NCBI RefSeq assembly: GCF_007858475.1 | Contig: NZ_VIGX01000001.1 | Location: 62,001-126,000 of the forward strand | DNA from: Tsukamurella conjunctivitidis | Lineage (GTDB): Bacteria; Actinomycetota; Actinomycetes; Mycobacteriales; Mycobacteriaceae | Length of the DNA: 64,000 nucleotides | Direction: 5' to 3' | Shown: positions 34,620 to 58,823 of the stretch, one piece after another | How the letters are laid out: each line of letters opens with the position of its first letter | How positions within the stretch are numbered: position 1 is the stretch's first letter | Made by a program: the position numbers and the translations under genes | Notes under the pieces: generated by a model | The model's database searches: none | What the model saw: the letters and a program-made list of their open reading frames with translations, nothing else | What the model was told of the DNA's origin: nothing

Positions 34620-35294
34620 TCAGCGAGCGCGGCGAGCGAGCCGCTCGCTGTCCGTAATGACGACCGACTTGCCTTCGAGGCGCAGCCAGCCGCGGTGGGC
34701 GAAGTCGGCGAGGGCCTTGTTCACGGTCTCGCGGGAGGCGCCCACGAGCTGGGCGATCTCCTCCTGCGTGAGGTCGTGCGTCACCCGCAGCGCGCCGTTC
34801 TCGTGCGTGCCGAAGCGCTGCGCGAGCTGCAGCAGCTGCTTGGCGACGCGGCCGGGAACGTCGGTGAAGATGAGATCGGCCAGGTTGTTGTTGGTGCGCC
34901 GCAGGCGGCGGGCCAACACGCGCAGCAACTGCTCCGCGATCTCGGGCCGGTCACGGATCCACGCGCGCAGGGCCTCGCGGTCCATCGTCATCGCGCGGAC
35001 CTCGGTGATGCAGGTCGCGCTCGATGTGCGCGGACCCGGGTCGAAGATCGACATCTCACCGAACATGTCCGACGGGCCCATCACCGAGAGCAGGTTCTCG
35101 CGGCCGTCCGGGGAGCGGCGGCCGAGCTTCACCTTGCCGGAGAGGATGATGTACAGCCGGTCGCCGGGCTCGCCCTCGTTGAAGATGACGTGCCCGCGGG
35201 GGTAGTCGACCTCGTGCAGATCCTTGGTGAGCGCATCGACCGCGCCCGGCTCGACACCCTGAAAAATGCCGGCCCGCGCCAGGACCTCGTCCAC
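34620..35294 (-). CDS. crp: Crp/GlxR global regulator (Rv3676 Crp orthologue)
   Basis: 224 residues, the same length as M. tuberculosis Crp. The cyclic-nucleotide domain has [17 protein letters not shown], the cAMP phosphate cassette (about 76-92). The HTH recognition helix is [14 protein letters not shown] (about 188-201). It binds TGTGA-N6-TCACA sites. The GTG start at 35294 gives the exact orthologue N-terminus. Two notable sites in the window are one upstream of crp itself and a perfect one in the gap at 56.7 kb. Confidence 0.97.
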
Positions 35295-35381: not shown

Positions 35382-35397
35382 TGTGGGAAATCGCACA
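35382..35397. promoter_or_regulatory. crp: Crp-like box upstream of crp
   Basis: TGTGGGAAATCGCACA matches TGTGA-N6-TCACA at 8 of the 10 fixed positions with perfect outer arms. It lies about 90 nt before the crp start, consistent with autoregulation. Confidence 0.55.
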
Positions 35398-35770: not shown

Positions 35771-36541
35771 ATGCCCCCGGAGCCGGAGACCCACCTCGGA
35801 CTGGTGCGCCGTGCCCGGCGGATGAATCGGACACTCGCCACCGCTTTTCCCCACGTGTACTGCGAACTCGACTTCACCGATCCGCTCGAGTTGTCGGTGG
35901 CCACGATCCTCTCCGCGCAGTGCACCGATGTGCGCGTGAATCAAGTCACACCGGCGTTGTTCGCGCGCTACCGCACGGCCGCCGACTACGCCGGGGCCCA
36001 GCGCGCCGAGCTCGAGGAGTACATCCGGTCGACGGGCTTCTACCGCAACAAGGCCACGTCGATCATGGGGCTGGGCCAGGCCCTCGTGGACCGCTTCGAC
36101 GGCGAGGTCCCGCGCACGATGAAGGAGCTGGTGACGCTTCCCGGCTTCGGTCGCAAGACGGCGAACGTGATCCTCGGCAACGCCTTCGACGTTCCCGGGA
36201 TCACCGTCGACACGCACTTCTCCCGGCTCGTGCACCGCTGGGAGTGGACCGAGGAGACGGACCCGGTGAAGATCGAGCACGCCGTCGGCGAGCTCATTCC
36301 GCGCAAGGAGTGGACCCTGCTCAGCCACCGCGTGATCTTCCACGGCCGTCGCGTCTGCCACGCCCGCAAGCCCGCGTGCGGCGTCTGCGTGCTCGCCAAG
36401 GACTGCCCGTCCTTCGGGACGGGGCCCGTCGACCCGGCCGAGTCCGCCGAGCTGGTGAAGGGGCCCGAGCGTGAGCACCTGCTCGAGATCGCGCCGCCCC
36501 CGCCCCGGCGGCGCCGCGTCCGGCCGGAGGGCGTTCGGTGA
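35771..36541 (+). CDS. nth: Endonuclease III
   Basis: 256 residues. The helix-hairpin-helix L-P-G-F-G-R-K-T-A carries the catalytic lysine, the catalytic Asp is in V-D-T-H-F-S-R-L, and C-x6-C-x2-C-x5-C near residues 197-213 binds the 4Fe-4S cluster. It removes oxidised pyrimidines and nicks the DNA. A Pro/Arg tail extends the C-terminus. TAGAAT lies 8 nt before the ATG, so the mRNA may be leaderless. The stop overlaps the TlpA-like GTG. Confidence 0.96.
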
Positions 36542-55538: not shown

Positions 55539-55586
55539 GTCCGGGTCGGCCCGGGGACGCGCGACGCGCGGGCTAGGGTGGGGCGT

Positions 55587-56324
55587 GTGACCGACCCGCT
55601 GAGCCCGCTCGTCGCCGTCCCCGCCGTCGCGGAGGCGGCCACCGCCGCACGGGAGGCGCTCGCCAAGGTGCACCGGCACCCCGCGAACCGTCGCGAGTGG
55701 CGGGCCACCGCCACGGAATCGTCGCTGCGCGGTGCCCGCGCGTCCGCCGCCCTCGACGGCGGCGCGGTCGCGCTGAGCCGCGACGAACTGATCAACGATC
55801 CCGTCCTCGCGGGGTCGATGCGCGCCTACCAGGCGATCGACGGTGACCTGCTGGACGCGACCGTCGGCGTTTGGCGCCGCGCGCCGTTGCAGGTCCTGGC
55901 CCGGTTGCACACCCTCGCGGCCGCGGACCTCGTCGACGGCGACGACAACCGGCTCGGCCGGCCCCGGCCCGGGACCGGCGAGCGGCTCGGGCTCCTCGCG
56001 CAGCTCGTGACCGGCGGCACGCAGGCGCCCGCGCCGGTGGTCGCGGCGATCGTGCACGGGGAACTGCTCTCGCTCCGCCCGTTCGAGGTGGCCGACGGTG
56101 TCGTCGCGCGCGCGGCGTCGCGGCTGGTCACCGTCGCCTCCGGACTCGACCCGCACGCCCTCGGAATCCCGGAGACGACCTGGCTGAAGTTCGCGCCCAG
56201 CTACGCCGACGCCGCGGATGGGTTCGGCATGGGCGATCCCGACGGTGTGGTCGCGTGGGTGGTGCTGTGCTGCCAGGCGTTGGAGGCCGGCGGGTTGGAA
56301 GCGCTGGCTCTGGCCGAGCGCTGA
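55587..56324 (+). CDS. Fic-like protein with degenerate active site (Rv3662c-like)
   Basis: 245 residues. An N-terminal block E-S-S-L-R-G-A-R-A-S-A-A-L-D-G resembles the S-S-x-I-E-G region of Fic proteins. The position of the catalytic motif reads L-R-P-F-E-V-A-D-G-V-V-A-R-A, with Leu for the catalytic His and no N-G-R. So a Fic fold without AMP-transferase residues is likely (inference). TAGGGT lies 7 nt before GTG 55587, suggesting leaderless translation and supporting this start over the GTG at 55578. The mycobacterial homologue occupies the same place. Confidence 0.75.
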   Translation: MTDPLSPLVAVPAVAEAATAAREALAKVHRHPANRREWRATATESSLRGARASAALDGGAVALSRDELINDPVLAGSMRAYQAIDGDLLDATVGVWRRAPLQVLARLHTLAAADLVDGDDNRLGRPRPGTGERLGLLAQLVTGGTQAPAPVVAAIVHGELLSLRPFEVADGVVARAASRLVTVASGLDPHALGIPETTWLKFAPSYADAADGFGMGDPDGVVAWVVLCCQALEAGGLEALALAER

Positions 56325-56379
56325 TCCGCTCGGATCCGCTTCGGGGAGAACGAACCCCGGACATGCGCAACGGCGACCC

Positions 56380-56694
56380 GGCCTGAGCTGAGGAAGATGC
56401 ACACGAGGTGCTTTCCTCAGAACGGGTCCGAATCGCCGTTCGCTAGCACGGATCCCGGTTACCAAGCGTGCGTGAGGGTGGGCTGTATTACGGCCTCGGC
56501 GTGCACCGGTGGAGAGATCCACTATCCGCAGATCTTGTGCTGACCACTGATTTCCCCGGCGACGCAGGCTCACAGCGCTTTCCGCCATAGGTGGCGAGCT
56601 CCGCGTGGGTGCCTGGTGTCCGTGCTGGGAGCCTTGACGCTCAGGAACCCTCGACCTTCTCTTCCGGTGGGGGTTTGGCTTTGCGCCGCTCCGT
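56380..56694 (-). ncRNA. Probable Ms1/MTS2823-type 6S-like RNA (ends approximate)
   Basis: The 449-nt interval 56325-56773 has no credible gene and lies between a convergent Fic-like and HAD-IB pair. In mycobacteria the abundant RNA polymerase-binding RNA Ms1 (MTS2823) lies between the same two genes, on the HAD-IB strand. On that strand here, a promoter (TTGATG, 17 nt, TAGAAA) predicts a start near 56694. Inside the predicted RNA a strong hairpin occurs: CTGAGGAA and GCAC arms (56388-56420). Identity rests on synteny, promoter and absence of coding; the 3' end is a guess from the family size of about 300 nt. Confidence 0.65.
56388..56420. other. Strong hairpin within the gene-free interval
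   Basis: CTGAGGAA (56388-56395) pairs with TTCCTCAG (56413-56420), and GCAC with GTGC inside around a 5-nt loop. It is near the predicted 3' end of the minus-strand RNA and may be its 3' structure or a terminator. Confidence 0.5.
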
Positions 56695-56700
56695 GACTCC

Positions 56701-56729
56701 TTTCTACCTTGTGAGCGCCGTCACATCAA
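56701..56729 (-). promoter_or_regulatory. ncRNA promoter with perfect Crp site in the spacer
   Basis: Read on the minus strand: -35 TTGATG (56724-56729), 17-nt spacer, -10 TAGAAA (56701-56706). TGTGAGCGCCGTCACA (56710-56725) is an exact TGTGA-N6-TCACA Crp/GlxR consensus that fills the spacer and touches the -35. Bound Crp would be expected to repress. Neither flanking protein gene can be the target, since both end facing this interval. Confidence 0.75.
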
Positions 56730-56773
56730 GGGGTAGGCGGGAAATTTCTCGGACGAGTTGCTACTGGCCGGTA

Positions 56774-57595
56774 TCACTGCTTCTTCCGGTGCAGCACAAG
56801 ATAAGTCGCGACGCCGGCGCCCGCGGCCACGACGCCGAGGCCGGCGCTCGCGAGGACCGAATTCCGCGATGGTGTGGGGATTCGATCGCGCAACGGTGTG
56901 GGGTTGGAGAACGAGACGACCGGCCAGCCGCGCTCCGCCGCCTCCTTGCGCAGGCCACGGTCGGGATTGACCGCGGTGGGGTGCCCCACGGCGGCCAGCA
57001 TCGGCACGTCGGTGATCGAGTCCGAGTACGCGAAGCACTGCGCGAGGTCGTACCCGTGTTCGGCCGCGAGCGACTCCATCGCGACGACCTTGTTCTCGCC
57101 GTAGCAGTAGAACTCGACCTCGCCGGCGTACTTGCCGTCCTCGACCTTCATCTTCGAGGCCACGGAGTAGTCGGCGCCGAGCATCTCGGCGATCGGCGCC
57201 ACCATCTCCTCGCCCGACGCGGAGACGATCACCACGTCGTGCCCGCGGGCGTGGTGACCGGCGATCAGCTCGGCGGCCTCCGCGAAGACCAGCGGGTTCA
57301 CCACGTCGTGCAGGGCCTCACGCACGATCGACGTCACCTGCTCGACGTTCCAGCCCTCGCACATCTGCGTGAGGTGATCGCGCATGCGCTCCATCTGGTC
57401 GTGGTCCGCCGCCGTCAACATCATCAGGAACTGCGCGTAGCTCGACTTGAGGACGGCGCGACGATTGAGCAGCCCCTCGTCGAAGAAGGGACGCGAGAAC
57501 GCCAGCGCGGATGATTTCGCGATGATCGTCTTGTCCAGGTCGAAGAAGGCGGCGACCCGGCGCACCGGGGCCTCGTCGGGCGCGGTAGGGCTCAC
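56774..57595 (-). CDS. HAD-IB family phosphatase (Rv3661-like)
   Basis: 273 residues. F-F-D-L-D-K-T-I (motif I), V-S-A-S-G-E-E-M (motif II) and Y-S-D-S-I-T-D-V-P (motif III) are those of the SerB-like HAD-IB group. The segment after motif I (S-S-A-L-A-F-S-R-P-F-F) and L-N-R-R-A-V-L-K-S-S-Y-A-Q-F recur in mycobacterial orthologues. A C-terminal membrane helix (about 250-268) precedes H-R-K-K-Q, suggesting tail anchoring. GTG at 57595. Confidence 0.92.
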   Translation of the reverse strand: MSPTAPDEAPVRRVAAFFDLDKTIIAKSSALAFSRPFFDEGLLNRRAVLKSSYAQFLMMLTAADHDQMERMRDHLTQMCEGWNVEQVTSIVREALHDVVNPLVFAEAAELIAGHHARGHDVVIVSASGEEMVAPIAEMLGADYSVASKMKVEDGKYAGEVEFYCYGENKVVAMESLAAEHGYDLAQCFAYSDSITDVPMLAAVGHPTAVNPDRGLRKEAAERGWPVVSFSNPTPLRDRIPTPSRNSVLASAGLGVVAAGAGVATYLVLHRKKQ

Positions 57596-57743
57596 GACGA
57601 TCAGCCTACCGGTGCCACACCGCTGCGCACCGCGCAAGAGCGGACCCCGGTTTCCTCCACAGGATTCTCGAATCGGACGGATTCCTCCACAGGCAGGGAC
57701 CGAATCGGTCGAACCGGACGGGCCCCGGACCGATGCTGTGCCC

Positions 57744-58823
57744 ATGCGGGGGATCGAGATCGGGATGGCGGTGGCCGACGGGGCGCTGGCCGACGACGTG
57801 CGGCGGGCCGCCGCGGCGGCGGCGCGGTCGGTCACGGACATCGACCGCGGCCGGCCCCGCGCCTGCTGGGCATCCGCGGCGGGCCTGGTCTTGGACGTGG
57901 CCGCGGCGACCGCGATGGCGGAGGCAGCGCGGGCGGGCGGCCTCCCACGCCGGGACGGGGTAGCGATCGTCGCGGCCGAGGCCGGGCTGGCGGAGCTGGC
58001 GGCGGCCGTCGAGGTGGGGGCGGCTCAGGTCTTCGTGCTGCCCGCACAGGTGCGGGACCTGGCGCGATTCCTCGCGGCGCGCGAGCAGGACGACGGTGCG
58101 CGCTCCCGCGTGGTCGCCGTCCTCGGCGGGCACGGCGGTGCCGGCGCGTCGGTCCTGGCGGCCGCGATCGCCGTCACCGCACCGGGCCGCGGGATCACTG
58201 CGCTCGCGGTCGATGCGGACCCGTGGGGCGGCGGCCTCGACTTGCTCCTCGGCTGCGCCGACATGCCCGGCCTGCGGTGGGGCGACCTCGCCCTGCGCGG
58301 CGGCCATGTCCCGGCGGAGGCCCTGGTCGCGGCGCTCCCGGGTCGCGCCGGCGCCGTGGCCGTCCTGGCCTCGGGCGGGGCTTCGGGCGGGACAAGAGCG
58401 CCGGACATCCCCGTCGAGGGGCTGCTCGCGGTCATCGATGCGGGTCGCCGCAGCGTCGGCGTCACCGTCGTCGACTTGCCGCGGCGTGACGATCCGGCCA
58501 CCGCCGCGTGCCTCGAGGTCGCCGATGTCGTGGTCGTCGTCGCGGCGGCGACGGTCCGCGGGTGCGCTGCGGCGCGTGCGGTGGCCGACGGGGTGTCGGG
58601 GCGCGCCGGGCAGGTCGGGCTGGTGGTGCGCGGACCGTCGCCCGGCGGCCTCTCCGCGCGCGACGTGGCGCGAGCCGTCGGCGTGCCCCTCCTCGCGTCG
58701 ATGCGGCCGCAGTCGGGCCTCGACGTACTGCTGGACGGCGGCGGCCTGCGCCTGAAGAAGGGATCGCCGCTGGCGCTCGCCGCCGGGCGGGTGCTGGACG
58801 GCGTCCGGCGGGGTGCGGCATGA
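57744..58823 (+). CDS. ssd: Septum-site-determining protein Ssd / CpaE-like ATPase
   Basis: 359 residues. The N-terminal ~100 residues resemble a receiver-like CpaE domain. The ParA/MinD-like ATPase half has G-G-H-G-G-A-G-A-S in place of a canonical K-G-G-x-G-K-T, so the P-loop lysine is lost; V-D-A-D-P-W-G-G-G-L-D and V-V-D-L-P-R remain. The mycobacterial orthologue affects septum formation; as the tad locus partner it may place the secretion system. ATGA overlap with tadA. Confidence 0.88.
   Translation: MRGIEIGMAVADGALADDVRRAAAAAARSVTDIDRGRPRACWASAAGLVLDVAAATAMAEAARAGGLPRRDGVAIVAAEAGLAELAAAVEVGAAQVFVLPAQVRDLARFLAAREQDDGARSRVVAVLGGHGGAGASVLAAAIAVTAPGRGITALAVDADPWGGGLDLLLGCADMPGLRWGDLALRGGHVPAEALVAALPGRAGAVAVLASGGASGGTRAPDIPVEGLLAVIDAGRRSVGVTVVDLPRRDDPATAACLEVADVVVVVAAATVRGCAAARAVADGVSGRAGQVGLVVRGPSPGGLSARDVARAVGVPLLASMRPQSGLDVLLDGGGLRLKKGSPLALAAGRVLDGVRRGAA

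Follow-up and report, generated by a model that had tools for sequence, protein, structure and literature searches.

A Crp-type dyad inside the promoter of a predicted Ms1 RNA from Tsukamurella conjunctivitidis and its conservation among Mycobacteriaceae

What is encoded between two converging genes of Tsukamurella conjunctivitidis, and what may control its expression? The interval in question (56325-56773) lies in a stretch of 64,000 nucleotides from contig NZ_VIGX01000001.1, which we refer to as the window. An earlier note on this DNA proposed that the interval contains a gene for Ms1, a 6S-like RNA, with a site for the cAMP receptor protein (Crp) inside its promoter. It also stated that both flanking genes end towards the gap, and the open reading frames (ORFs) that bound the interval are indeed arranged in this way:

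55578-56324, plus strand: converging gene of unassigned family, placed like Rv3662c (ORF)
56774-57841, minus strand: HAD-IB hydrolase gene, Rv3661-like (TIGR01490, 213 bits, above cut-off)

Since the HAD domain begins at residue 97, the true start of the second gene probably lies within the ORF, below position 57841. The product of the first ORF gave no match to NCBIfam or Pfam at E 0.001. Judged by the neighbouring gene, the nearest named relative is Tsukamurella asaccharolytica (92% identity) among the best 80 of 571 relatives from one scan, which are also the named relatives discussed below. The interval had been described as the only gene-free gap of more than 300 nt. With a crude ORF picker based on codon bias, six such gaps remained, this one included, and at least one of them (57842-58507) overlies a long ORF (57447-58823) that the picker had missed.

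First, we examined the identity of the putative RNA. A search with the Ms1 covariance model, suggested earlier as a check, returned a full-length match in the interval with 96.5 bits (E 1.3e-24, permissive Rfam search), yet below the Rfam gathering cut-off of 162, which is a curated listing rule and not a biological feature. The first base of this match is position 56694, exactly the minus-strand start that had been predicted. At standard cut-offs, Rfam returned only a tRNA from the whole window. The RNA and its terminal structure are located as follows:

56391-56694, minus strand: Ms1 RNA, homologue of RF02566 (covariance match to model positions 1-304, start at 56694)
56365-56443, minus strand: 3' terminal hairpin of the genus, a two-tier stem (alignment columns 263-353 paired, 16 sequences)

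All 16 same-genus genomes contain an Ms1 match, and the 15 other than the one studied here score between 86 and 125 bits, again under the cut-off of 162. Control genomes gave none (0/14). Matches were found in 61 of the 101 genomes searched, above the cut-off in only seven of these 101. No 6S family was among the 4 Rfam matches recorded in the interval up to E 10. The candidates mir-763 (E 0.11), CC3664 (E 6) and ASpks (E 8.1) fell far under their own cut-offs and were discarded.

The predicted fold is consistent with this assignment. The RNA of the window folds with z = -3.3 relative to shuffled sequences, and the consensus fold of the 16 Tsukamurella sequences comprises 102 base pairs, in 18 of which both partners differ in one or more sequences. 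This consensus contains three hairpins, one at the 5' end, a long interrupted one and a terminal one; the long hairpin, the unpaired centre and the short 5' and 3' hairpins reproduce the layout of Ms1-type RNAs. The two-tier terminal stem extends 26 bases beyond the end of the Rfam match, to position 56365, and a transcript of about 330 nt is therefore possible. The lower part of this stem is largely invariant across the 16 genomes. No U-run follows the terminal hairpin in the window, and a terminator scan of the minus strand of the interval found no terminator-like site.

Gene context points in the same direction. The HAD-IB gene is located upstream of Ms1 on the same strand and resembles Rv3661, which we take to be a HAD-IB hydrolase. 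The Ms1 profile starts 49-210 bases past the HAD match, on the same strand, at all 80 of the 80 named loci. In M. tuberculosis, the corresponding RNA MTS2823 is reported on the forward strand between Rv3661 and Rv3662c (PMC3207917), and this synteny supports the earlier statement that the same gene pair flanks Ms1/MTS2823 in mycobacteria. The full-length covariance match, the occurrence in 16/16 same-genus genomes, the 6S-like structure and the synteny thus uphold the proposal that the interval encodes Ms1. A coding reading of the interval was dropped, as covariance model, synteny and compensatory pairs account for it. Ms1 from this genus is not new: T. paurometabola is named in PMC3207917, and Tsukamurella is listed among the Ms1 carriers in PMC9130861.

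The window RNA shares with Ms1/MTS2823 (RF02566) the full-length match, a HAD-IB neighbour on the same strand, a converging second neighbour, an adenine as first base and a promoter of the primary-sigma type. It differs in its score under the Rfam cut-off and in a longer, two-tier 3' hairpin without a U-run. The long interrupted hairpin is also a hallmark of 6S RNA (ssrS), and both RNAs act on RNA polymerase. In contrast to 6S RNA, Ms1 binds the sigma-free core enzyme and is not a 6S RNA by its authors' definition (PMC9130861).

After identifying the RNA, we turned to its promoter. The earlier note described a complete minus-strand promoter with 17-base spacing and an exact Crp-type dyad, and the sequence agrees in every element:

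56724-56729, minus strand: -35 element TTGATG, in conserved register (TTG required for placement)
56701-56706, minus strand: -10 element TAGAAA, in conserved register (TA required for placement)
56710-56725, either strand: Crp-type dyad TGTGA-N6-TCACA, exact, over the edge of the -35 element and the spacer

Read along the minus strand, TTGATG is followed by a 17-base spacer, TAGAAA, six further bases and the A at 56694. A generic sigma-70 scan detected no promoter in the interval, because the two hexamers match the consensus at 8 of 12 positions and TAGAAA lacks the required final T. We accept these hexamers as a promoter because they are conserved across relatives. Taken together, sequence comparison supports the prediction that the interval encodes an Ms1 RNA on the minus strand, with a sigma-A-type promoter of its own that would start transcription at 56694.

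The dyad (TGTGAGCGCCGTCACA) is centred at -23.5 relative to 56694 and spans the final two bases of the -35 element together with 14/17 bases of the spacer. In the papers searched, no description of Ms1/MTS2823 was found to mention such a site. It is the sole exact TGTGA-N6-TCACA in the window, where shuffled sequences predict 0.02 (2/100 shuffles contained one). With up to two mismatches allowed, the window contains 7 dyads as opposed to 12.3 expected from shuffles. Because there is no enrichment at this level, the signal consists of the exact site and its position, not of a cluster. The entire 5.07 Mb assembly contains 8 exact dyads and none of the reversed control sequence. Within 200 bases upstream, we found no second dyad (up to three mismatches) from which Crp might activate. 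Two of the other exact dyads lie upstream of a superoxide dismutase-like ORF, as judged by eye (L177, position 2001), and just before an ORF of 131 aa (L179, position 3772); the contexts of all seven were drawn with the crude ORF picker.

Is this dyad a peculiarity of one genome? Using the Ms1 profile, we located the RNA in 146 of 148 sequences (L145 and L147 gave no match). Once further loci had been added, the promoter register fitted 164 of 175 starts. The remaining 11, three of which come from an added Mycobacterium set, have other spacing or no TTG/TA. Since TTG and TA were demanded for placement, their presence in 123/123 unique promoters is given by construction. We counted unique -35 to -10 sequences, which avoids double counting of loci from the same genome (for example L001/L125; L002/L118; L003/L109/L117). 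Among these 123 sequences, the dyad has no mismatch in 26, one in 44, two in 19 and three or more in 34, which corresponds to at most one mismatch in 70/123 and at most two in 89/123. When the spacers were shuffled (2000 rounds, preserving spacer composition and ignoring relatedness), the mean number of promoters with at most one mismatch was 0.026 and the maximum 2. The half-sites carry 0.56-1.6 bits per column and the central six bases 0.18-0.58 bits. The right half (TCACA/G), which lies in the spacer, is conserved nearly as well as the left. Of the 16 Tsukamurella promoters, 14 contain the exact dyad and two a dyad with one mismatch, and the six central bases occur in 13 different forms across the same set.

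Counted by placed rows, at most one mismatch was found in 20/20 Tsukamurella (some genomes appear twice), 22/23 Nocardia, 4/4 Williamsia, 1/1 Gordonia, 1/1 Antrihabitans and 9/14 Rhodococcus. The Nocardia exception (L038) owes its 10 mismatches to a placement shifted by one base; in the proper register its box is exact. Each of the seven Mycolicibacter rows has two mismatches (0/7), as has Saccharopolyspora, and Prescottella has three. Among named Mycobacterium, 3/24 rows have at most one mismatch. A further 41 rows were grouped as other, second Ms1 copies among them: 18 show one mismatch or none, and 10 show five to eight.

A blind search for promoter plus dyad in 296 genomes of the class returned 18 genomes with one site each, and the reversed pattern returned none. 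Each of the 18 sites precedes an Ms1 profile match, at a distance of 30-67 bases overall and of 30-45 bases in 17 cases. Under this strict pattern, sites were found in 17/25 genomes of the family, 1/3 from the rest of the order and 0/268 outside the order. The Crp-type dyad in the Ms1 promoter is thus conserved over much of the family. The composite box was found in none of the 268 class genomes outside the order, which indicates that Ms1 function in general does not require it.

Several further Ms1-like loci deserve description. Five genomes from genera g2, g20 and g24 contain a second, shorter Ms1-like RNA of about 250 nt elsewhere (L131-L135). By eye, these copies have core stretches in common and show a strong hairpin at the 3' end; they lack the Crp dyad. 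Genus g24 resembles the Rhodococcus jostii group, since the promoters of L084 and L053 are identical. Bacillus has a 6S-1/6S-2 pair, and the second copies possibly form a comparable Ms1 pair. A search of PMC9130861 gave no mention of a second, shorter RNA. One genome (G026; L136, L137) has two Ms1 matches, each with a one-mismatch dyad. Two Mycobacterium genomes of 3.3 Mb (G174, G214; L175, L176) have weak Ms1 matches of 85 and 70 bits and off-consensus promoters, as in a reduced genome. Finally, genomes of 1.9-2.2 Mb from genus g5 (L138, L140) contain Ms1 without a recognisable -35 element or dyad; crp is present in them.

The scarcity of intact dyads among named Mycobacterium raised the question of how the box is distributed in this genus. 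A promoter pattern occurs in 231/297 Mycobacterium genomes, with both forms among the matches listed. We built a tree from the neighbouring HAD-gene region alone, excluding the promoter, and scored the box as present with at most two mismatches. It holds 57 of 58 placed Mycobacterium/Mycolicibacter rows (L172 was omitted because of short upstream DNA, and three unplaced rows are also out) and 4 outgroup rows. Over these 61 rows, the presence of the box changes once. The boxless clade consists of 29 rows with an SH-aLRT support of 96. Many Mycobacterium species, M. colombiense, M. scrofulaceum, M. ostraviense and M. asiaticum among them, contain TGTGC...GGTCTAG-like sequences with 4-6 mismatches. 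A box with one mismatch is retained in M. shimoidei, L065, L079 and 16 further rows of the tree. This was a quick tree with soft branch details and one very long branch (L174), and the 30 added genomes, 25 of which had missed the promoter pattern, were hand-picked and do not represent a random sample. A count of changes cannot reveal direction, but the outgroups carry the box. The distribution therefore reads as one loss within Mycobacterium. In the boxless clade (L011-L015, L024, L029 and others), a well-conserved GGTCTAGTAGTA often takes the place of the right half and may be a new element or a mark of plain relatedness.

Could the organism read this dyad? The claim that crp is present near 34.6 kb proved correct:

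34620-35294, minus strand: crp, cAMP receptor protein of 224 aa with cNMP-binding and Crp HTH domains

The protein aligns over residues 1-224 with the solved Crp/Fnr-family chain 3h3u (433 bits), presumably Crp of M. tuberculosis, and the recognition-helix stretch of 10 residues and its surroundings are identical in the two proteins. It is the sole Crp match in the genome at E 1e-20. A Crp match was found in 15 of 15 genomes tried, even in some that lack the box or an Ms1 match. The genome also encodes six class III cyclase domains, so that cAMP can probably be made. Weaker dyads occur at 35382-35397 (2 mismatches) and 35935-35950 (1 mismatch). The first precedes the crp start by 88 bases, and autoregulation of crp through this sequence is possible.

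What would Crp do at this position? The Crp sites of M. tuberculosis are concentrated at -60 to -40 and at +1 to +20; binding near the start is associated with repression and binding further upstream with activation (PMC4117774). Crp1 and Crp2 of M. smegmatis are reported to bind TGTGA-N6-TCACA (PMC7739888). The closest parallels are the Crp-repressed promoters of crp2 (M. smegmatis) and frdA (M. tuberculosis), which carry sites of the same consensus in the core promoter (PMC7739888, PMC4117774), and crp2 is up in crp mutants (PMC7739888). In contrast to these sites, which overlap the transcription start, the Ms1 dyad overlaps the -35 element and the spacer, and the product of the promoter is an RNA. 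On stereochemical grounds, a Crp dimer centred at -23.5 would mask the places where sigma touches the -35 element and the spacer, which leads us to expect repression; the earlier note had given no sign for the effect. As to the signal, starvation is reported to lower both cAMP and Crp binding in M. tuberculosis (PMC4117774), and blocked respiration raises cAMP in M. smegmatis (PMC7739888).

We therefore find it rather probable that this Ms1 is transcribed from a Crp-repressed promoter that is relieved by a fall in cAMP, and that this wiring is ancestral and was lost once in Mycobacterium. At high cAMP, a Crp dimer would occupy the dyad over the -35 edge and the spacer and exclude RNA polymerase. 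When cAMP drops on entry into stationary phase or during starvation, Crp would leave and Ms1 would rise. The RNA product would then bind sigma-free RNA polymerase core, as reported for Ms1 of M. smegmatis, which binds the core without the primary sigma factor (PMC9130861). The wiring itself would be ancestral in the family. From the dyad and its position, we infer direct binding of Crp at the Ms1 promoter and a link to carbon state, as the earlier note had suggested. Against this reading stand the rise of cAMP on blocked respiration in M. smegmatis and the 34/123 unique promoters with three or more mismatches, some of which lie beyond the boxless Mycobacterium clade.

Published data on Ms1 expression bear on how much of its regulation a Crp switch would explain. 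Ms1 increases about 130-fold in stationary M. smegmatis (PMC4191392) and is also an abundant RNA in stationary-phase R. erythropolis (PMC9130861). In M. tuberculosis, which from its clade position likely belongs to the boxless group, MTS2823 still rises from 6748 to 43600 RPKM in stationary phase (PMC3207917). A second, Crp-independent mode of induction thus seems to exist. Ms1 is also the gene most affected by CarD depletion in stationary phase, the direction of the effect not being stated (PMC12709188), and LexA is reported at MTS2823 (PMC4191392). The CarD effect is a strong competing input and slightly lowers our confidence in the above account. The rise of MTS2823 and the CarD effect favour the most serious alternative, namely that Crp binds the dyad with small effect and stationary-phase induction comes from CarD, RNA stability or other factors. 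The minor share of Crp-site genes among the changes in an M. tuberculosis crp mutant (PMC4117774) also fits this reading. We still consider it unlikely, since conservation across genera at a promoter-blocking position implies a selected effect.

It is quite improbable that another Crp/Fnr-family factor or an unrelated protein reads the dyad in place of Crp. A motif alone does not identify its protein, and some mycobacteria possess a second Crp or further Crp/Fnr factors (PMC7739888), but this genome encodes a single Crp-type protein at E 1e-20 with a matching recognition helix, and the consensus is that published for Crp (PMC7739888).

We assign slightly less probability to activation, for example by MerR-like bending of the spacer DNA, in which case Ms1 would be high at high cAMP. 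In enteric bacteria, carbon starvation raises cAMP, and a response of this type would fit stationary-phase Ms1. The almost fixed spacing of -35 element, dyad and -10 element in 164/175 located starts also speaks for activation. The dyad, however, overlies sigma contacts, and M. tuberculosis Crp activates from upstream, represses near the start and meets falling cAMP during starvation (PMC4117774).

Least probable of all is that the box is kept as core promoter with incidental palindromy, as the partial overlap of the left half with the -35 element and the largely retained TGTG/TGCG in the clade without the right half might suggest, because the right half is conserved although sigma is not expected to recognise sequence within the spacer, the six bases between the halves vary, and a whole Mycobacterium clade and the second Ms1 copies lack the box.

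The connection between Crp and Ms1 seems to be new. The word CRP is absent from the main texts of PMC9130861, PMC4191392 and PMC11077062, and the accessible main text of PMC4117774 does not report Crp at Ms1. In the open-licence literature available to us, we recognised no link between Crp and Ms1/MTS2823; a report elsewhere is possible. A Crp-linked sRNA described in PMC4117774, ncRv13660c, was considered as Ms1 and rejected, for it is B11/6C, a neighbouring RNA. B11/6C of M. tuberculosis resembles the present case in being an sRNA from this gene neighbourhood that is preceded by a Crp site (PMC4117774). It is a different RNA from Ms1, and its name places it on the opposite side of Rv3661. 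The 6C family gave no match in the window, including 57560-57800, which separates the HAD gene from the next one and corresponds to the presumed location of B11 in M. tuberculosis.

Ms1 homologues rank among the most abundant mycobacterial RNAs (PMC3207917), and the 2014 Ms1 paper (PMC4191392), as far as accessible to us, left the regulator of Ms1 open. The conserved dyad names a candidate for this regulator and suggests the sign of its effect. More tentatively, and with rather more doubt than for repression itself, cAMP-Crp could be the ancestral off-switch of Ms1 across Mycobacteriaceae, and its loss in a Mycobacterium clade rich in slow growers would leave Ms1 high during growth. If true, this would account for MTS2823 as the top non-ribosomal transcript in growing M. 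tuberculosis as compared to the roughly 130-fold rise of Ms1 in M. smegmatis, where we infer the placement of both species, neither of which was identified among the genomes compared. Clades with and without the dyad constitute a natural experiment on this switch. Repression of Ms1 by Crp, if true, would tie the carbon and energy state of these bacteria directly to the amount of RNA polymerase that they hold in reserve.
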